Source: Bacteroidota bacterium (GTDB taxonomy: Bacteria > Bacteroidota > Ignavibacteria > OLB7). From it: DNA of 64,000 bases. Below the pieces are notes generated by a model that worked only from the letters and a program-made list of their open reading frames with translations, had not been told where the DNA came from and did not search any database. Made by a program: the position numbers and the translations under genes. Of this stretch, positions 37,314 to 48,002 are shown piece after piece (the stretch's first letter is position 1; the number at the start of each line of letters is the position of its first letter). Location: the NCBI GenBank assembly GCA_018266795.1, contig JAFDZV010000007.1, forward strand, positions 1-64,000, in the 5' to 3' direction.

Positions 37314-38726
37314 ATGTATTACCATTCACGCAACGCAACGCTCTCGAAAATCCGTATCCGATTTGCGCAGCGTGCCGCCGGCATCGCTGCGTTCGCACTG
37401 CTGATATCCCTTGGCGCCAACACGGCATTCAGCCAGCCCGACATTCTTATCAGGGACTGCCAGGCCGACAATGGCGCAATTCCCAGCGCACCGGGCGCCT
37501 GCTCGACAGGCGTGTATTGGAGCCCGGACATCTGGGGCCGCCTGAGTCCTGATGCCGGCACAACCGATCAGGGACCGATCGTCGGCGCACCGCTGTATAT
37601 CTACATCCGCATGAAGAACATCGGAGACCGGATGCTGGGCTGCGGCGTTCTGCACCTGTATTATCGCGACGCAACGGTGGGCGCCGCCAACTGGCCGTCT
37701 GACTGGATCGCACGCTGGATCGGCGGCAACATTACCGCAGACGAGATCGGTTCGGTCTGCGTCTGCTGCATTCTTCCCGGCCAGACGCAGATCGTCATGA
37801 TTCCATGGGCGTCCGTACCAGCCAACAAGGGCGGCTACGGGCACCACTGCCTCCTGGCACGGTTCGTATCGGCGGAGGACCCGATGACTCCTCCCGGCGA
37901 GACGTCCAATACCTACGACAACATCCGGCTGAACAACAACATCGCGCAGAAGAATCTCGCCAACACTTCTCCCGCCAACCCGAACGCCGTTGTGACGCTG
38001 TTCAACAACTCGCTCGATCCCGTTACCACCACACTGAAGTTCGATGCGCTTGCGAACGACAACGGAAACAACGTGTTCGACGTGCCGGGCTTCCAGGTGA
38101 AGGCCGTGCTGGGAGCGGACCTCTACGCGCTGTGGAACGGTCAGGGGCAGGGAGTACAGCCGTTGCCGGAGGAGAACGCCGTGCTGATCACCGGTGCGAA
38201 TGCGCAGCTGGACGGTATCACCCTCCAGGGCCGGGATTGCCGGAACCCGGTGGAGTATGCAATCAACGTGCAGATGCTCTACCCGGCGAATATTCCGCCG
38301 GATCAGGCGAACGATGTCTACAACTGGACCATCGAGCAACACCTGGGCGGCGCAACGGAAGCCGTGAACGGCGAGGCATTCGAAGTTCACATGGGGGATC
38401 AGGAACCGCAGGGGAAGACAGCCCGCCCGCCCGCACCTGACCTGGGAACGAAGCTGAACCTGCATGCGCAGCCGAACATCTCGGCGGCCAGCAGCAGGAT
38501 CGGATTCACGCTCCCGAACGACGCACAGGTGACACTGGCGATCTACGATGGCAATGGGGCGCTTGTCCGCACGCTGATCTCCAAGGTGGACCAGACCGCC
38601 GGTTCACACGAGGTGGAATGGAACGGCCTCTCGAAGGACGGCGTGAAGGTCGCGAGCGGCACCTACTTCTACCGTCTGATGACGCCGGACGGCACCGTTG
38701 AGAAGCAGATCAAGATCGTGCGATAA
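37314..38726 (+). CDS. T9SS cargo with FlgD-Ig-like sorting domain (470 aa)
   Basis: ATG 37314 follows GGAGGCCAGAG. Signal peptide IAAFALLISLGANTAFSQ. Two beta-sandwich-like regions follow (residues ~40-200 and ~210-380); CVCCILPGQTQIVMIPW and YGHHCLLARFVS are suggestive of a CARDB/extracellular Ig-like arrangement, as are NTYDNIRLNNNIAQKNL and TLKFDALAND. The C-terminus is a FlgD-Ig/T9SS domain (IGFTLPNDAQVTLAIYD, GSHEVEWNGLSKDG, VASGTYFYRLMT, EKQIKIVR). No catalytic motif. A perfect terminator hairpin follows at 38753. Confidence 0.85.
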   Translation: MYYHSRNATLSKIRIRFAQRAAGIAAFALLISLGANTAFSQPDILIRDCQADNGAIPSAPGACSTGVYWSPDIWGRLSPDAGTTDQGPIVGAPLYIYIRMKNIGDRMLGCGVLHLYYRDATVGAANWPSDWIARWIGGNITADEIGSVCVCCILPGQTQIVMIPWASVPANKGGYGHHCLLARFVSAEDPMTPPGETSNTYDNIRLNNNIAQKNLANTSPANPNAVVTLFNNSLDPVTTTLKFDALANDNGNNVFDVPGFQVKAVLGADLYALWNGQGQGVQPLPEENAVLITGANAQLDGITLQGRDCRNPVEYAINVQMLYPANIPPDQANDVYNWTIEQHLGGATEAVNGEAFEVHMGDQEPQGKTARPPAPDLGTKLNLHAQPNISAASSRIGFTLPNDAQVTLAIYDGNGALVRTLISKVDQTAGSHEVEWNGLSKDGVKVASGTYFYRLMTPDGTVEKQIKIVR

Positions 38727-39426: not shown

Positions 39427-40566
39427 CTACGGCGTTCCCTTCCATTGCCGTCCGCGAGGGCCGACGTACACGGATTGCGGACGGATCAGGCGGCCGGCCC
39501 GCTCCTGCTCGAACGCATGCGCGATCCAGCCAACCACGCGGCTCACGGCGAAGGTGGGCGTGAAGAGATCATTCGGCAGCCCGATGCCGTGCAGAAGGAG
39601 CGCCGTGTAGAACTCCACATTGGTCTGCAACCGCCGCCCCGGCTTCTGCTCCTCGAGCAGTGCGAGCGCCGTCTCCTCCACCTTCGTTGCCAGACGATAG
39701 AGATCGCGATCGCCTCCATTGCCGAACAACCGTTCCGCCGCGGCCGCAAGCACATCGGCGCGGGGGTCGCGCACCTTGTAGACGCGGTGTCCGAATCCCA
39801 TCAGCCGTTCGCCGCGCGCCAGCTTGGAGCGAATGTACGACTCGGCGCGCTCCTCGGACCCGATCTCCAGAACCATGTCCAGCGCAGGCCCCGGGGCGCC
39901 CCCATGCAGCGGCCCCTTCAACGCTCCAACCGCACCGGCAACCGCCGACACCAGATCCGATCCGGTGGAGACGATCACCCGCGCCGTGAAGGTGGATGCG
40001 TTGAGACCATGATCGACCACGGTGTTCAGATAGGTCTCGAGCGCCCGCGCCTCCGCCGCGCTCGGCTCGGAAGCCCGGAGCATCCAGAGGTAGTTGGCGG
40101 CGTGCCCGAGATCCGCTCGCGGCCCGACAGGCTCCCCGCCATTGCGCAACCTCCAGTACGCGGCAACGATGGTCGGGAAACGGGCAGCGAGCGCGGCGGC
40201 TCGCACGGCCGGCTCGCTCCCGCCCGCTGCACCATCCAGATCCAGCGTTCCCGCCGCCATGCGGAGCGCATCCATGGCGGGAACGCCGTTCGCCGCAGCC
40301 TCACGGAGCAGTGCGAGCGTTGCGGCCGGAACCGTGCGGTGCGATGCAAGCATGCCGGCGAAGGATTTCAATTCTCCACCGCCCGGAAGTTCGCCGTTCC
40401 AGAGCAGATAGGCCGTCTCCTCGAACGTCGCGTTCGGTGCAAGCTCCTCCACCGGATACCCGGCGATAACCAGCTCTCCCGCCTCCCCGTCGACACTGCT
40501 CAACGTTGTCTCAGCCGCAACCACCCCTTCCAGCCCGGGGCGAATCATATCCTGATTGTCCGTCAT
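39427..40566 (-). CDS. Citrate/2-methylcitrate synthase
   Basis: 379 aa. Condenses acetyl-CoA (or propionyl-CoA) with oxaloacetate. It begins at ATG 40566 after CAGGAGTGAGC. Conserved elements: LEGVVAAETTLSSVDG, FEETAYLLWNGELP, the substrate His in LKGPLHGGAPG, the second His in LMGFGHRVYKVRDPRA, and NVEFYTALLL where Glu stands at the position usually occupied by catalytic Asp (NVDFYS in many enzymes). Short bacterial type without N-terminal beta domain. It is divergent from an HTH-citrate synthase fusion across 91 bp holding a dyad, so regulation by that neighbour is likely. Confidence 0.93.
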   Translation of the reverse strand: MTDNQDMIRPGLEGVVAAETTLSSVDGEAGELVIAGYPVEELAPNATFEETAYLLWNGELPGGGELKSFAGMLASHRTVPAATLALLREAAANGVPAMDALRMAAGTLDLDGAAGGSEPAVRAAALAARFPTIVAAYWRLRNGGEPVGPRADLGHAANYLWMLRASEPSAAEARALETYLNTVVDHGLNASTFTARVIVSTGSDLVSAVAGAVGALKGPLHGGAPGPALDMVLEIGSEERAESYIRSKLARGERLMGFGHRVYKVRDPRADVLAAAAERLFGNGGDRDLYRLATKVEETALALLEEQKPGRRLQTNVEFYTALLLHGIGLPNDLFTPTFAVSRVVGWIAHAFEQERAGRLIRPQSVYVGPRGRQWKGTP

Positions 40567-40627
40567 TGTCGTGCTCACTCCTGTTTGTTGATGCAGGCAA
40601 CTTATCGATTGCACGAACATATAGTCA

Positions 40628-40649
40628 ATATTGATTCAACGATCAATAT
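40628..40649. promoter_or_regulatory. Dyad operator between divergent citrate synthase genes
   Basis: ATATTGAT (40628-40635) and its exact complement ATCAATAT (40642-40649) are separated by 6 nt. The dyad ends 8 nt before ATG 40658 and overlaps the region expected for the promoters of both divergent genes. A TAAGTTGC box on the minus strand near 40599-40606 and TATATTGC at 40647-40654 on the plus strand are candidate -7 boxes. Most simply the operator of the HTH-citrate synthase protein. Confidence 0.55.
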
Positions 40650-40657
40650 ATTGCGGT

Positions 40658-41866
40658 ATGAAATCGAAGCGATATCTCTCCGCGCAGGAGGCTGCGCGCG
40701 AACTGGGCGTAGCTCCTGCAACGCTCTACTCCTATGTGAGCCGCGGGCTGGTCCGATCCGAACAGGGAGCCGGACGGGAGCGACGGTATCATGCCGACGA
40801 CGTGCGGAAGCTGAAGGAAAGGAGCCAGCTGCGGCGCGATCCGGCGAAGGCCACAGAGGGGGCGCTGCACTGGGGTGCTCCGCTGCTGGAATCATCCATC
40901 ACGCTGATTGCGGACGGACGGCTGTACTACCGTGGAGAGGATGCGGTTCGGCTTGCATCGGCGCGGAGCCTGGAGGAGGTGGCGACCCTGATATGGAACG
41001 GCGACATGGCCGCTCCCATCCCCTTCAACGCGCAGGTTGTTCGCCGGCCGGCGCACCTCGCACGCATCCAACGGGCACTGGAGGAACTGCGCACCGTGGA
41101 GCGGATGCAGGCGGTGCTGGCAGTCACGGCTGCGGAGGATCCTGCGGCATACGATCTCCGCGCCGACGCCGTGATGCGCACAGGCATACGCATCGTGCAG
41201 TTGATGACGACGGTTGCATCGGGCATCCCGGCAATCGGCAGAGGCATTGCGGCCACACTCGCAGCGGCATGGGCGCCCGGCAGGCCGCAGGCCCCACGGC
41301 TGCTGGAGCAGGCGCTCATCCTTGCCGCGGATCACGAGCTGAACGTCTCCTCCTTCACCGTTCGCTGCGTTGCGTCCGCGGGCTCAACCCCCTATCAGGC
41401 GGTGATCGCCGGCCTTGCAGCGTTGGAGGGAACGAAACATGGAGGATACACCGAGCGCGTGGAGGCGATGCTGGAGGAGATCGGGAAGCCGGAACGCACC
41501 CGCGAACAGATCGCCGCGCGGTTGCGACGCGGGGAGGCGATACCGGGCTTCGGGCACTCGCTCTATCCCGAGGGCGACCCTCGCGGCGCGGCTCTGCTGG
41601 ACGCCGTCGCCGATGCCATGCCTCGTTCGCCGGCACTGAGGCTTCCGTTCGCCGTGCGCGAGGTAGTCGCCGACGTCGTAGGCGACTACCCGACAATCGA
41701 TCTCGGACTGGTGGCGATTTCGCACGCACTCGGCCTCCCGCGCGGAAGCGCTCTCACGCTCTTTGCGCTGGGACGAACCATCGGCTGGATCGGTCACGCC
41801 ATCGAGCAGTATGCGACCGACCGGATGATCCGGCCGCGTGCACGGTACACGGGGAAAACACCGTAG
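40658..41866 (+). CDS. Helix-turn-helix / citrate synthase fusion protein
   Basis: 402 aa. The N-terminal ~60 residues are an excisionase/MerR-type helix-turn-helix (LSAQEAARELGVAPATLYSYVSRGLV, RRYHADDVRKLKE). The remainder is a citrate-synthase fold: LHWGAPLLESSITLI, ARSLEEVATLIWNGDM, the first His in GTKHGGYTERVEAML, the second in PGFGHSLYPEGDPRG, and YPTIDLGLVAISHALG with the catalytic-position Asp. It may be an active synthase, a CoA- or oxaloacetate-sensing repressor, or both. ATG 40658 is used; the earlier TTG would start inside the operator. Likely autoregulated, since the dyad lies immediately upstream. Confidence 0.88.
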   Translation: MKSKRYLSAQEAARELGVAPATLYSYVSRGLVRSEQGAGRERRYHADDVRKLKERSQLRRDPAKATEGALHWGAPLLESSITLIADGRLYYRGEDAVRLASARSLEEVATLIWNGDMAAPIPFNAQVVRRPAHLARIQRALEELRTVERMQAVLAVTAAEDPAAYDLRADAVMRTGIRIVQLMTTVASGIPAIGRGIAATLAAAWAPGRPQAPRLLEQALILAADHELNVSSFTVRCVASAGSTPYQAVIAGLAALEGTKHGGYTERVEAMLEEIGKPERTREQIAARLRRGEAIPGFGHSLYPEGDPRGAALLDAVADAMPRSPALRLPFAVREVVADVVGDYPTIDLGLVAISHALGLPRGSALTLFALGRTIGWIGHAIEQYATDRMIRPRARYTGKTP

Positions 41867-42911: not shown

Positions 42912-43838
42912 CTACCGTCCCCCATGTTGAATTGCCGGCGTTGAACGTTGAACTTCCCTCACCATGCGGTACGTGTTCACGTGGGCACGCACCGTCTCGG
43001 TGATCGGCTGCGCATAGCCGCCGCCGAGCGTGAGCACCAGCGGAACTCCGGCGGAGTACGCAGCCGCAAGCACCATCCGGTCCCGCTCCATCAGGCCCTC
43101 ATGCGTGAGCGCAAGACGCCCAAGGCGGTCGCAGTGCAATGGATCCACACCGGCCTGGTAGAAGATGATGCCGGGCGTGACTGCCATCACCGCATGCAGC
43201 GCACCCTCGAGAAGCGAGAGATAGGTCTCGTCCGTGGTGGCATCATCCAGATCGATATCGACCGTGGAGGGGATCTTGGTGAAGGGATAGTTGTTGCGCC
43301 CGTGCATGCTGAGCGTGAAGCAGCGATCGTCACCGCCGAGAATCGCCGCCGTGCCGTTCCCCTGATGCACATCCAGATCCACAACGGCAACCCGGCGTAC
43401 GACTCCCTCCTCGAGCAGCGTCAAGGCCGCAACCGCGATATCGTTGAACACGCAGTAGCCCTCCCCGGCATCGCGGAAGGCGTGATGCGTGCCGCCGGCC
43501 AGGTTCCCCGCGAGGCCATCATGCAGCGCCGCGCGCGCGGCCGCGAGCGTCCCCCCCACCGACGCCAGCGAGCGCCGCACGAACGCAGGGCTCCACGGTA
43601 TGCCGATGCGGCGGACGATCTTCGGGTCCACCGTTCCATCGCAGTACGTGTTCACGTAACGCGCCGAGTGCGCCACCAGCAACTGTTCCGGATGCGCCGG
43701 CACCGCCTCGTGCAGCTCATGCCCGGCAACAACGCCCTCGGCGAGCAACGCATCGCGGAGCATGCGATACTTCTCCATCGGGAATCGATGCCCCTCCGGA
43801 AGCGGAACCGTGTAGGTGTCGGAGTAGGAGATGTGCAT
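42912..43838 (-). CDS. Histone deacetylase/acetoin utilisation-family amidohydrolase
   Basis: 308 aa. Zinc-dependent class II arginase-fold deacetylase. Visible motifs: GGTHHAFRDAGEGYCVFNDIAVA (two catalytic His plus N-D), VAVVDLDVHQGNGTAAIL (zinc ligands Asp and His), FYQAGVDPLHCDRLGRL (third ligand Asp) and LTLGGGY (transition-state Gly region; Tyr follows). Bacterial members deacetylate polyamines, acetoin-related or acyl-lysine substrates. ATG 43838 fits the family start; ATG 43871 would add 11 residues. The gene is divergent from the Xre/RES antitoxin gene. Confidence 0.92.
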   Translation of the reverse strand: MHISYSDTYTVPLPEGHRFPMEKYRMLRDALLAEGVVAGHELHEAVPAHPEQLLVAHSARYVNTYCDGTVDPKIVRRIGIPWSPAFVRRSLASVGGTLAAARAALHDGLAGNLAGGTHHAFRDAGEGYCVFNDIAVAALTLLEEGVVRRVAVVDLDVHQGNGTAAILGGDDRCFTLSMHGRNNYPFTKIPSTVDIDLDDATTDETYLSLLEGALHAVMAVTPGIIFYQAGVDPLHCDRLGRLALTHEGLMERDRMVLAAAYSAGVPLVLTLGGGYAQPITETVRAHVNTYRMVREVQRSTPAIQHGGR

Positions 43839-43929
43839 GGGGGAAGATGCGAAAGCGTTCCGGACATTCATCGCGTTCACGGCAATGAATGTCTGCAGAC
43901 GGAGGGTTGCCGGGATGTGCATTTGCCCA

Positions 43930-43937
43930 TATATTGC
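43930..43937 (+). promoter_or_regulatory. Putative -7 box (TATATTGC), 3 nt before the antitoxin start
   Basis: TTG-N20-TATATTGC is followed by GGC and ATG 43941. The same TATATTGCGG string precedes ATG 40658. Confidence 0.45.
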
Positions 43938-43940
43938 GGC

Positions 43941-44390
43941 ATGATTGCACACTCACTCACAGCGGAAATTCAACGGCTCGCGCAGTTGCTGGGCAACTCC
44001 TCATCTTCGCAAGGCCGGATAACGGACGAGATCTCATTGATCGACTCGATCCGTGCAGGCCTTCCGTTGAAATCGGTAACCATCGTTGCGGAATCGGCCC
44101 GGATGTCGGCCACGGAAATCGAACGCATCATCCCGCGCCGCACCCTTGCACATCGCAAGGCACGGAAGGAACGCCTGTCGCTCGAGGAATCGAACCGGCT
44201 GATACGTGTTGCGCGCACTGTGGCACTTGCCTTCGAGACGTTTCAGGATCTCGAGAAGGGACGTACATGGCTGCGGCAACCGAACCGTGCGCTCGCCGGG
44301 CACCCCCCGATGGAGTTGCTGGACACCGATGCGGGAGCGCGTCTGGTTGAGAGCGTACTCGGCAGAATTGCCCATGGTGTGTTCAGTTGA
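43941..44390 (+). CDS. Antitoxin, Xre/MbcA/ParS toxin-binding family (DUF2384)
   Basis: 149 aa. The N-terminal half is helical with an Xre-like helix-turn-helix region (LPLKSVTIVAESARMSATEIERIIPRRTLAHRK). The C-terminal half is the toxin-binding domain (LSLEESNRLIRVARTVALAFETF, DLEKGRTWLRQPNRALAGHPPMELLDTDAGARLVESVLGRI), including the diagnostic GxxPxxLL-type helix. It binds and neutralises the RES toxin encoded next and usually represses the operon. The stop overlaps the toxin start. Confidence 0.93.
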   Translation: MIAHSLTAEIQRLAQLLGNSSSSQGRITDEISLIDSIRAGLPLKSVTIVAESARMSATEIERIIPRRTLAHRKARKERLSLEESNRLIRVARTVALAFETFQDLEKGRTWLRQPNRALAGHPPMELLDTDAGARLVESVLGRIAHGVFS

Positions 44391-44845
44391 CGCTTGCCTA
44401 CCGAATCGCCCGCGCCCCTTTCCCTGCACTGGATGGCGAGGGTGCGCGACTGTATGGCGGGCGTTGGAATTCACGCGGCACTCCGTTGGTCTATGCCGCC
44501 GGTTCTATTGCCCTCGCCGTGCTGGAACTCCTGGTGCATACCGATCCCGCAACACTCCCGGCGGATCTCACCGTCTACACCATCGAGCTTCCTGACAACA
44601 TCACCATCGAACAGATATCCGGACGGAGCCTGCCGAAAGGATGGCGGAAACACCCCGCATCCATTGCCTGCGCCCGCTTCGGCGATGCCTGGGCTGCGAG
44701 CCTGAGCACACCGGCCCTGAGCATCCCATCGGCAATCGTCCCGGAGGAATACAACTACCTGATCAATCCCCGGCACCCCGATTCCCACCTTATTCGCGTC
44801 GTACGCAAGCGCCGCTTCGCGTTCGATCAGAGGCTGCTGCAATAA
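44387..44845 (+). CDS. RES-domain toxin (NAD+-degrading)
   Basis: 152 aa starting at TTG 44387, which overlaps the antitoxin TGA (TTGA). RES fold: YRIARAPFPALDGEGARLYGGRWNSRGTPLVYAA supplies the conserved Arg and Tyr, then LAVLELLVH with the acidic residue, and STPALSIPSAIVPEEYNYLINPRHPD with the conserved Ser/Asn region. RES toxins deplete NAD+ by phosphorolysis and cause growth arrest. Coupled translation ensures antitoxin is made first. Confidence 0.93.
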   Translation: MTLAYRIARAPFPALDGEGARLYGGRWNSRGTPLVYAAGSIALAVLELLVHTDPATLPADLTVYTIELPDNITIEQISGRSLPKGWRKHPASIACARFGDAWAASLSTPALSIPSAIVPEEYNYLINPRHPDSHLIRVVRKRRFAFDQRLLQ

Positions 44846-45203: not shown

Positions 45204-48002
45204 ATGCCGAAGCTCTCCCTCGCGAAACTCGAACGCCATCTCTATGCCGCGGCCGATATCCTGCGCCGCGACGGCCTGGATGCCGCCTCCTACAAGGACT
45301 ATATCTTCGGCATGCTTTTCCTGAAGCGCTGCTCCGACGTCTTCGAGACCGAACGCGCCGCGGTGGTGGAGGCGAAAACCGCCAGGGGCATGGAGCTGCA
45401 TGAGGCAGAGCTTCGCTACGGCGACAATCCGGACTTCTACGACGAGTTCTACGTACCCCCCACCGCCTGCTGGAGCTACCTGCAGGGGCGCCTGAACGAT
45501 GCATCGGAGCCCTTCGGCAGCGTGCTGGACAAGGCACTCGGCGCGCTCAGCCACGATAACGGCTCGCTGGAACACGTGCTGGACCACATCAGTTTCATGC
45601 GCACGCAGGGGAACAAACGCATGGTCTCCGATGAGGCATGCCGCGATCTGGTGCGCCACTTCAGCAGCTATCGCCTGCGCAATCAGGATTTCCAGTTCTC
45701 CGACCTGCTGGGCGCCGCATATGAATTCCTGATCAACATGTTCGCGGAGTCCGCCGGGAAGAAGGGGGGCGATTTCTACACGCCGCGCGATGTGATCCGC
45801 CTGATGGTGCGCATGCTGAAGCCCACGCCCGGCATGAGCGTGTACGATCCCACCTGCGGCTCCGGCGGCATGCTCATCATCAGCCGCGAGTATATCGAGC
45901 AGTCCGGCGGCGACGCCACGAACATCCGGCTCTGCGGGCAGGTGAACGATGCATCCGCCTGGTCCATCTGCAAACTCAACATGCTCCTGCACGGCATCCG
46001 CGGCGCCGATATCCGGCTGGAGGATACGCTGCTGCACCCGCTGCACCGGGAGGCGGGCGGGCTGGAGCGGTTCGACCGCGTGATCGCCAATCCCCCCTTC
46101 AGCCAGAACTACACGCAGGAGGGGATGGAATTCCCGGAACGCTTCCGATGGGGCTGGTGCCCCCCAACCGGCAAGAAGGCGGATCTGATGTTCGCCCAGC
46201 ACATGCTTGCCGTGGCGAAGGCCAACGGCATGGTGGCTACCGTGATGCCGCACGGCGTTCTGTTCCGCGGCGGCGCCGAGCGGGAGATACGCGCCCGGTT
46301 CCTGGAGCAGGATCTGATCGAGGCGGTGATCGGGCTTCCCCCCAATCTCTTCTACGGCGCCGGCATCCCCGCCTGCATTCTGGTGATGCGCCCCAACCTG
46401 AGCGGCGAACCGGCCAACCCGAACAAGCCCCCCGAACGCCGCCGCCGGGTGCTCTTCATCAATGCGGACGCGGAGTTCCACGCCGGGCGGGCGCAGAACT
46501 ATCTGCGGCCGGAGCACGTGGAGAAGATCGCCTCCACCTTCGAGCGCTTCGCGGAGGTGCCCGGATACTCGCGCATCGTGCCGCTGGAGGAGATCGCGGG
46601 GGAGGAGAACGACTGCAACCTGAATATCCGCCGCTATGTGGATAACGCCCCGCCGCCGGAGCCGCACGATGTGCGCGCCCACCTGGTTGGCGGAGTCCCC
46701 ACGGCGGAGATCGAGACCGGGCGGCCGTTGTTCCAGGCGATGGGGTTCGATCCGCTCCACGCATTCATCCCCCGCCCCGCTGAGCCGCGCTATCATGATT
46801 TCGCGGGGGCAATCGCCGGGCGTTCGGACATCCGGCCTCTGGTTGAGAATAACCCCGGCGTTATCGCGCGCCAGGCCGCGCTGCGCGATGCCTTCACGGC
46901 CTGGTGGGAGGAGCACGCGCCGCATCTCGCGGAGCTTCCTCAGCGGCGCGATCTGAACGCCGTGCGCGCGGAGTTCCTGGGCTCATTCACCGGCGCCCTG
47001 CTCCCGCTCGGCACGCTGGACGCCTTCACGCTGGCGGGAACGGTGGCCGCCTGGTGGACCGAAACGCTCCCGGACCTGAAGACGCTGGCGGAGAATGGCT
47101 TCGCGGGGGTGATCGAGGGATGGGCGGATGCCGTTGCCGATGCGGCCGAGGAGGATGAGCCGGGCCCCGCAGCCGCCGATCCCTTCGCGCACAAGCTGGT
47201 ACGCCGCACCATGGCGGACTATCTGGAGCGCATCGCCGGCGCGAAGGGTGAGGTTGCCCGCCTGAAGGGGGAGAAGGAGGCGTTCGAGGCCACGAACGCG
47301 CCGGAGGAGACGGAGGAGGAGGATGCCCCGGCCTGGAATTATGCGAAGGAGCTGGAGAGCGGGATACGCGCGGCGAAGGGGGCGATTGCCGAACGCCTGG
47401 CTCCGGGCAGGGAGCTGGCCGCCCGGGAGAAGGCGCAGACGAAGCGGCTGAAGGGAGCGGAGAAGGTGATTGCCCTGCTGGAGGGGACGGGGCCAAGATC
47501 GATCGAGCGCGCGGTGAAGAAGGGGCTGCCGGAGGATGAACTCCGGGCGGCGCTTGCGGAGGCCAGGCGCGAGGCGGAGGCGGCGCAACGCGAGCTGCAC
47601 GATCTGCGGAATGCGCTGCGCGCGCTGGAGGCCGCATGCGCGCCGGAGCACGAACGGATGCGCGCACTGCGCCAGGCGCTGGAGCCGTACGAGGCGCTGA
47701 AGAAGGGGCTGGCGGAGGCCCGCGCCGGGTACCGCAATCTGGTGAGCGACTTCGTCTTCCAGCTTCGCGCCCGCTGCGAGGCGTTCACCCCGGAGGAATC
47801 GCGCGCGCTTGTGCTGGAGCTCTTCGCCGCGGACCTCGCCGCCGGCATGGCCGGGGCCGTTGCCGAACGCCGGATGGCCGTGGGCCGCTCCATCGAGAAG
47901 CTGTGGGAGAAATATCGGGTGACGATGGAAGAATTATTCGCATCCAGAGAGGCTATTGAACGGGACATGCAGCACCTCTTACATGAACTCAAATACCAAT
48001 GA
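45204..48002 (+). CDS. hsdM: Type I restriction-modification methyltransferase subunit with long coiled-coil extension
   Basis: 932 aa, against ~500-550 for typical HsdM. The N-terminal helical domain (KLERHLYAAADILR) and the N6-adenine methyltransferase core are intact: motif I DPTCGSGGMLI near residue 216 and motif IV NPPFSQ near 297. After residue ~520 comes a tail of about 400 residues, rich in Ala/Glu/Arg with heptad-like helices (EKEAFEATNAPEETEEED; EAEAAQRELHDLRNALRALEAA), predicted coiled coil. It would methylate adenine in the HsdS-defined target and form part of the HsdR2M2S complex. Stop overlaps hsdS start (ATGA). Confidence 0.94.
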   Translation: MPKLSLAKLERHLYAAADILRRDGLDAASYKDYIFGMLFLKRCSDVFETERAAVVEAKTARGMELHEAELRYGDNPDFYDEFYVPPTACWSYLQGRLNDASEPFGSVLDKALGALSHDNGSLEHVLDHISFMRTQGNKRMVSDEACRDLVRHFSSYRLRNQDFQFSDLLGAAYEFLINMFAESAGKKGGDFYTPRDVIRLMVRMLKPTPGMSVYDPTCGSGGMLIISREYIEQSGGDATNIRLCGQVNDASAWSICKLNMLLHGIRGADIRLEDTLLHPLHREAGGLERFDRVIANPPFSQNYTQEGMEFPERFRWGWCPPTGKKADLMFAQHMLAVAKANGMVATVMPHGVLFRGGAEREIRARFLEQDLIEAVIGLPPNLFYGAGIPACILVMRPNLSGEPANPNKPPERRRRVLFINADAEFHAGRAQNYLRPEHVEKIASTFERFAEVPGYSRIVPLEEIAGEENDCNLNIRRYVDNAPPPEPHDVRAHLVGGVPTAEIETGRPLFQAMGFDPLHAFIPRPAEPRYHDFAGAIAGRSDIRPLVENNPGVIARQAALRDAFTAWWEEHAPHLAELPQRRDLNAVRAEFLGSFTGALLPLGTLDAFTLAGTVAAWWTETLPDLKTLAENGFAGVIEGWADAVADAAEEDEPGPAAADPFAHKLVRRTMADYLERIAGAKGEVARLKGEKEAFEATNAPEETEEEDAPAWNYAKELESGIRAAKGAIAERLAPGRELAAREKAQTKRLKGAEKVIALLEGTGPRSIERAVKKGLPEDELRAALAEARREAEAAQRELHDLRNALRALEAACAPEHERMRALRQALEPYEALKKGLAEARAGYRNLVSDFVFQLRARCEAFTPEESRALVLELFAADLAAGMAGAVAERRMAVGRSIEKLWEKYRVTMEELFASREAIERDMQHLLHELKYQ

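Follow-up and report, generated by a model that had tools for sequence, protein, structure and literature searches.

Why should a bacterium keep a citrate synthase that is fused to a DNA-binding domain in divergent orientation to the gene of a normal citrate synthase? The question is raised by a locus in a 64,000-nucleotide stretch of a Bacteroidota contig, hereafter the window. A first reading made from the sequence alone (the sequence-only reading) had described a helix-turn-helix (HTH)-citrate synthase fusion divergent from a normal citrate synthase, and Pfam assignments and coordinates bear this out. The fusion gene lies at 40658-41866 on the forward strand (402 aa, ATG at 40658), the citrate synthase gene at 40566-39427 on the reverse strand (379 aa, ATG at 40566), and the gap between them is 91 bp. 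We consider it probable that the fusion binds an operator and controls both the divergent gene and its own expression, with the fusion as the proposed regulator and the citrate synthase as its proposed target.

The fusion protein is composed of a winged HTH (approximately residues 1-60) and a citrate synthase domain (approximately residues 72-394). In Pfam searches HTH_17 matched residues 5-54 with 33.3 bits (cut-off 27), MerR_1 scored 30.5 bits (cut-off 21.6), and Citrate_synt (PF00285) matched residues 71-393 with 223.7 bits (cut-off 27); these residue numbers derive from a query read from 40661, and adding one converts them to the full 402-aa numbering. The stricter MerR model PF00376 gave 25.1 bits, under its cut-off of 28.2. 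An AlphaFold2 model (mean pLDDT 88, pTM 0.79) predicted the HTH confidently, with a helix-helix-wing-helix arrangement at the N terminus. The long dimerisation helix that follows the wing in MerR proteins was absent from this model, which has helices at residues 46-60 and 62-72 only and a low-confidence linker. The body has the citrate synthase fold (Foldseek E 6e-16; VIA-align Z up to 38.4, 2.4 A over 334 residues), and the matches listed by both programs were citrate synthases only. Citrate synthases are dimers, and the citrate synthase dimer would be a natural stand-in for the missing MerR dimerisation helix. Public databases annotate the fusion as 'citrate synthase family protein' or 'citrate/2-methylcitrate synthase'.

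The divergent partner is a citrate synthase of the Bacillus subtilis CitA (CS-I) type. It scored 403 bits against Pfam Citrate_synt and 366 bits against NCBIfam PRK12350 (cut-off 332), and its nearest solved structure is 2c6x, the B. subtilis citrate synthase (E 1.4e-95). The genome that contains the window has three PF00285 genes, namely the fusion, the partner, and the main citrate synthase on another contig (474 bits).

In the 84,980 species genomes scanned, 80 full-length relatives of the fusion with 42-61% identity were found; this set was gathered by similarity to the query and therefore under-samples distant members. Several of the loci are contigs of metagenome-assembled genomes. The relatives are distributed over ten phyla: Chloroflexota, Actinomycetota, Acidobacteriota, Pseudomonadota, Gemmatimonadota, Verrucomicrobiota, Poribacteria, Latescibacterota, Chlorobiota, and Spirochaetota. 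Outside locus L035, the closest relatives of the window protein are at most 58% identical to it. Of the 80 relatives, 56 have a citrate synthase in divergent orientation, and the distance correlation between fusion and partner is 0.82 (permutation maximum 0.18), indicating that the two genes travel together and coevolve. In nine of the 80 the divergent partner is an HMGL-like enzyme (PF00682) of the homocitrate/isopropylmalate synthase superfamily; these loci belong to Chloroflexota, Spirochaetota, Verrucomicrobiota, and Pseudomonadota (L070, L071, L073, L079, L088, L100, L102, L107, and L108). The same pairing of fusion and HMGL-family gene, with the same operator, is found on Deinococcus plasmids (L149 and L155), which adds an eleventh phylum. 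The HMGL-family partner may be a Re-citrate, citramalate or homocitrate-type synthase. As to its serving as the sole citrate synthase, draft G298 has no PF00285 gene besides the fusion, and the other HMGL-partner genomes do have another. Proteobacterial fusions are divergent from a CoA transferase, a DUF2332 gene, a 2-hydroxyacid dehydrogenase or an MFS transporter with the operator kept (L151, L156, L152, L164, L159, and L162), as though the family had been co-opted into further pathways of organic acids. The possibility of a larger conserved operon was rejected: upon clustering of neighbouring genes, the fusion and its citrate synthase or HMGL synthase were the only components shared across phyla, and the remainder was clade-specific.

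Other genes in the window were also annotated. A secreted protein with a C-terminal domain of the FlgD Ig-like/CHU_C type is encoded at 37314-38726 (+) and is probably a type IX secretion cargo. A histone deacetylase-family protein (PF00850) at 42912-43952 (-) faces the fusion gene from downstream. At 44387-44845 (+) there is a RES-domain protein (PF08808, 112 bits) with an upstream ORF resembling an Xre/MbcA-type antitoxin, and the two likely form a toxin-antitoxin pair. A type I restriction-modification methylase HsdM (PF02384, PF12161; 932 aa) with an unusually long C-terminal extension follows at 45204-48002 (+).

If the fusion is a regulator, what could it sense? The active site of a citrate synthase is intact in nearly all of the 81 fusions compared: H226 is retained in 80, H261 in 81, H300 in 79, and R309, D348, R373, and R392 in all 81, so that both catalytic histidines, the catalytic Asp and the citrate-binding arginines are kept. 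The adenine-loop residues P-G-F-G-H are mostly retained as well. In 66 of 81 fusions Pro occupies the position four residues beyond the second catalytic His, where known enzymes have a basic residue that contacts CoA (R324, a CoA-phosphate contact, in pig citrate synthase). In addition, a loop of about six residues ahead of the catalytic Asp is missing in 81/81. This pattern of residues suggests a pocket retained for oxaloacetate or citrate in which the use of CoA is weakened. That one of these two acids is the ligand strikes us as an evenly balanced proposition. A link to the methylcitrate cycle was considered and rejected: searches of the window's own genome (100% complete) gave no match to PF03972 (PrpD) or TIGR02317 (PrpB), and for this reason propionyl-CoA is unlikely either as input or as part of the chemistry.

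The same residues bear on the best-surviving alternative, in which the fusion is enzymatically active as a citrate synthase and binds DNA as well. It would then be a trigger enzyme comparable to PutA, whose association with the operator depends on turnover or on occupation of its substrate site. The conserved catalytic residues and adenine loop would fit such an enzyme, and the fusions carry the canonical Asp (D348) where 56 of 56 scorable partner citrate synthases have Glu (NVEF/NVEY motif), as does B. subtilis CitA. We nevertheless regard this alternative as possible but doubtful, given the Pro at the CoA-contact position and the lost loop. Moreover, the fusion falls below every NCBIfam citrate synthase equivalog cut-off, its best score being far short (161 bits vs. 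421 for TIGR01800), and the genome already has two other full citrate synthases.

The proposed regulator would require a binding site between the two genes. A perfect 8-6-8 dyad, ATATTGAT-TCAACG-ATCAATAT, is present at 40628-40649 with no mismatches. The sequence-only reading had recognised this 8-bp dyad with its 6-bp spacer exactly, and had placed it at the start of the fusion gene. A TTG codon at 40631 would lengthen the fusion ORF; the start codon is most likely the ATG at 40658, which makes the dyad intergenic, with 8 bp between its end and the gene. Sequence matching together with the family consensus delimits a conserved operator, TCAATATTGATTCAACGATCAATAT, at 40625-40649 (no strand assigned). 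Within the window the dyad is the sole match when up to 3 mismatches are allowed (shuffles give 0.04), and TCAATATTGATTCAACGATCAATAT is the sole perfect match across the 5.97-Mb genome. Taken together with the conservation among relatives described below, the shuffles and this uniqueness rule out a chance occurrence. As for further regulon members in the same genome, one more match with 2 mismatches was found and was not convincing.

The operator overlaps with putative promoters on both sides. On the reverse strand, the proposed citrate synthase promoter consists of a -35 box TTGACT at 40623-40628, inside the left arm of the operator, and a -10 box TAAGTT at 40599-40604 with a spacer of 18 bp; taken by itself, the window's copy is a weak match. 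On the forward strand, a possible -10 box of the fusion gene, TATATT at 40647-40652, lies 19 bp after TAGTCA at 40622-40627; transcription from it would possibly give an almost leaderless mRNA. Across the family, the citrate synthase side shows TTGAC(A)-17 bp-TAnnnT in 45% of loci vs. 1.8% of shuffles (z 28.6), with TAnnnT at 18 bp in 14% of loci. On the fusion side TTGTCA and the first T of TAT are conserved 19 bp apart with the dyad inside that spacer, and at this distance the -10 signal is weak (TAnnnT in 12% vs. 3.5% of shuffles) and overlaps the dyad; in Rubrobacteraceae TATAGT is found 2 bp further on. At both 19 and 21 bp, the family-level fusion-side signal is weaker than that of the citrate synthase side. 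In several loci the operator reaches the fusion start codon. Since the operator overlaps both the -35 box of the partner and the start region of the fusion gene, a bound protein would contact both, which fits autorepression combined with control of the partner. We infer, with a modest preference, that the fusion represses rather than activates.

The geometry of the operator also allows activation, its dyad centre being near -45 of the partner. A MerR-type activator would bind the stretched 19-bp spacer, bend the DNA and switch on its own gene, and would activate the partner from about -45. The MerR_1 score over its cut-off and the conserved TTGTCA-19-TAT(A) arrangement with the dyad in the spacer, which recalls MerR activators, are in line with such a mechanism. 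Against these stand the modest -10 signal within the dyad, the normal 17-bp spacer of the partner promoter, whose -35 box lies inside the operator, and the extension of the operator into the start codon, and we therefore judge this alternative unlikely.

The autoregulatory circuit, which the sequence-only reading had called plausible, receives comparative support, the dyad being kept upstream of the fusion across ten phyla. The operator was found upstream of the fusion in 75 of the 80 relatives, with the consensus (g)TCAAyNTTGATtnnnnaATCAATat, in which TCAA (positions 0-3) and TTGA (6-9) are essentially invariant. Flanks beyond the operator and the promoter boxes are unconserved. At a tolerance of 3 mismatches, the operator was matched by 3 of 1600 dinucleotide-shuffled regions. 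It is present in all 65 loci where the partner is a citrate synthase or HMGL synthase and in 10 of the 15 others, an association (Fisher p < 0.001) calculated from a table that scored L107 as negative although its operator was found. The alphaproteobacterial operators have a spacer one base longer. In an independent set that was not used to derive the operator, it was present in 14 of 16 plasmid loci, whatever the divergent gene, and these 14 include loci with a CoA transferase, DUF2332, 2-hydroxyacid dehydrogenase or MFS transporter gene as neighbour. The most distant relatives examined (two Burkholderiaceae, Burkholderia and Paraburkholderia, approximately 34-35% identical) are in a same-strand gene cluster with no operator. 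In four loci (L050, L051, L059, and L062) an extra TCAAyNTTG half-site lies immediately beside the operator, towards the citrate synthase (ATCAATGTTGTCAATATTGATT), which suggests two adjacent binding sites in some lineages.

Retention of the dyad in genomes without the fusion, which the sequence-only reading had named as evidence against the circuit, was looked for and not seen. Among 149 Actinomycetota genomes with 17 citrate synthase loci, the operator was present in 8/8 loci with the fusion and in 0/9 without it; the eight partner-type citrate synthases with fusion and operator are 66-69% identical, and the nine with neither 45-51%. The operator was thus rejected as a general feature of CitA-type genes. 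In the window's phylum (296 genomes) the exact operator pattern occurs in 12 other genomes. For nine of these matches the surroundings (~1.5 kb) contained no citrate synthase or fusion, so that the readable matches outside the window's own genome are not near a citrate synthase. Most fusion-bearing genomes have a single clear copy of the operator, at the fusion. On these sequence comparisons, the operator goes with the fusion rather than with the neighbouring gene.

These distributions also address the proposal that the dyad belongs to some other regulator, the fusion HTH having a different DNA target or none. In three loci of related Gemmatimonadota and Latescibacterota (L145:2870, L146:2683, and L148:2845) a second, near-identical operator precedes an L-rhamnose mutarotase gene (PF05336), which could be taken to favour another regulator. 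The genomes with this second site also have the fusion, however, and the mutarotase gene is possibly an extra target in them. As the operator accompanies the fusion through different phyla and neighbourhoods and is missing where the fusion is missing, we find the proposal very unlikely. An ordinary isoenzyme pair with a shared divergent promoter, in which the HTH-like part is vestigial or serves protein interaction, would agree with the genome annotation of both genes as citrate synthases. We consider it highly improbable, because the HTH residues (invariant L16, T22, Y24, Y26, S28, R29, S34, and Y44) rank with the best-conserved positions of the fusion and conservation of the operator goes far beyond that of a promoter.

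We infer, with high confidence, that the fusion binds the 25-bp operator and controls the divergent gene. The mechanism we propose is that of a transcription factor derived from citrate synthase, in which the citrate synthase domain would supply dimerisation and the dimer would offer two MerR-like winged HTH heads to the operator at 40625-40649. The bound fusion would cover the citrate synthase -35 box together with the beginning of its own gene, most likely repressing both. A ligand in the oxaloacetate/citrate site would close the citrate synthase fold and shift the spacing of the heads, and binding would be released or tightened.

Parts of this arrangement have precedents. In B. subtilis, citA is controlled by the divergent regulator gene citR, and CitR is a LysR-type protein. 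The locus described here has the same type of target, with 2c6x as nearest structure, and the same divergent-regulator logic, whereas the proposed regulator combines a citrate synthase homologue with a MerR-like HTH; Pfam gave no match to a LysR HTH or effector domain at E-values up to 1. MocR/GabR proteins join a GntR HTH to an aminotransferase fold that serves as a dimeric sensor, and they combine divergent autoregulation with diversified targets. Here too an enzyme fold behind an HTH is the proposed sensor, although both the enzyme fold and the HTH family are different and neither the GntR HTH nor the aminotransferase fold was matched in the fusion (Pfam). With MerR and HspR the fusion shares the MerR_1/HTH_17 winged HTH, and its similarity to HspR is weak (27 bits). 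The operator has the core half-site TTGA...TCAA, which is like the HAIR box of HspR. The spacing of half-sites differs, however, and in the model the citrate synthase body replaces the long dimerisation helix. Enzyme-derived regulators are known, but to our knowledge none is made from citrate synthase. The LysR regulators CcpC and CcpE respond to citrate and control the transcription of genes for citrate synthase and the TCA cycle (PMC13288900; PMC11315280). They have a LysR fold with a periplasmic-binding-protein-like sensor and no sequence relation to the fusion. In Agrobacterium fabrum, ATU_RS25365/25370 form a divergent pair with the operator present. Streptomyces coelicolor SCO5831/SCO5832 have been reported as two adjacent putative citrate synthases (PMC12323332), and the adjacent putative citrate synthases RL2508/RL2509 of Rhizobium leguminosarum were non-essential in the screen concerned (PMC5118466); both resemble the fusion-partner pair by position. 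A search of the open-access full-text literature turned up no account of a regulator of the HTH-citrate synthase type, nor of one member of such a pair regulating the other.

Citrate synthase is the entry enzyme of the TCA cycle. In the fusion, a central metabolic enzyme has most likely been turned into a widespread, uncharacterised gene switch, as the comparative data suggest. We are evenly divided on the broader view that the fusions constitute an unrecognised class of regulators, spanning at least 11 phyla, with a citrate synthase active site as sensor and one operator that is kept while targets are swapped; these targets would be non-homologous enzymes of similar chemistry (PF00285 CitA-type and PF00682 HMGL) and, elsewhere, other organic-acid genes. 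Sensors for TCA metabolites such as oxaloacetate and citrate are scarce (PMC13288900), and a natural catalytic site that senses them, together with a defined 25-bp operator, would be a ready-made TCA biosensor. If our reading is true, many genes annotated as citrate synthase would be gene switches, and metabolic models in which they figure as isoenzymes would have to be corrected.
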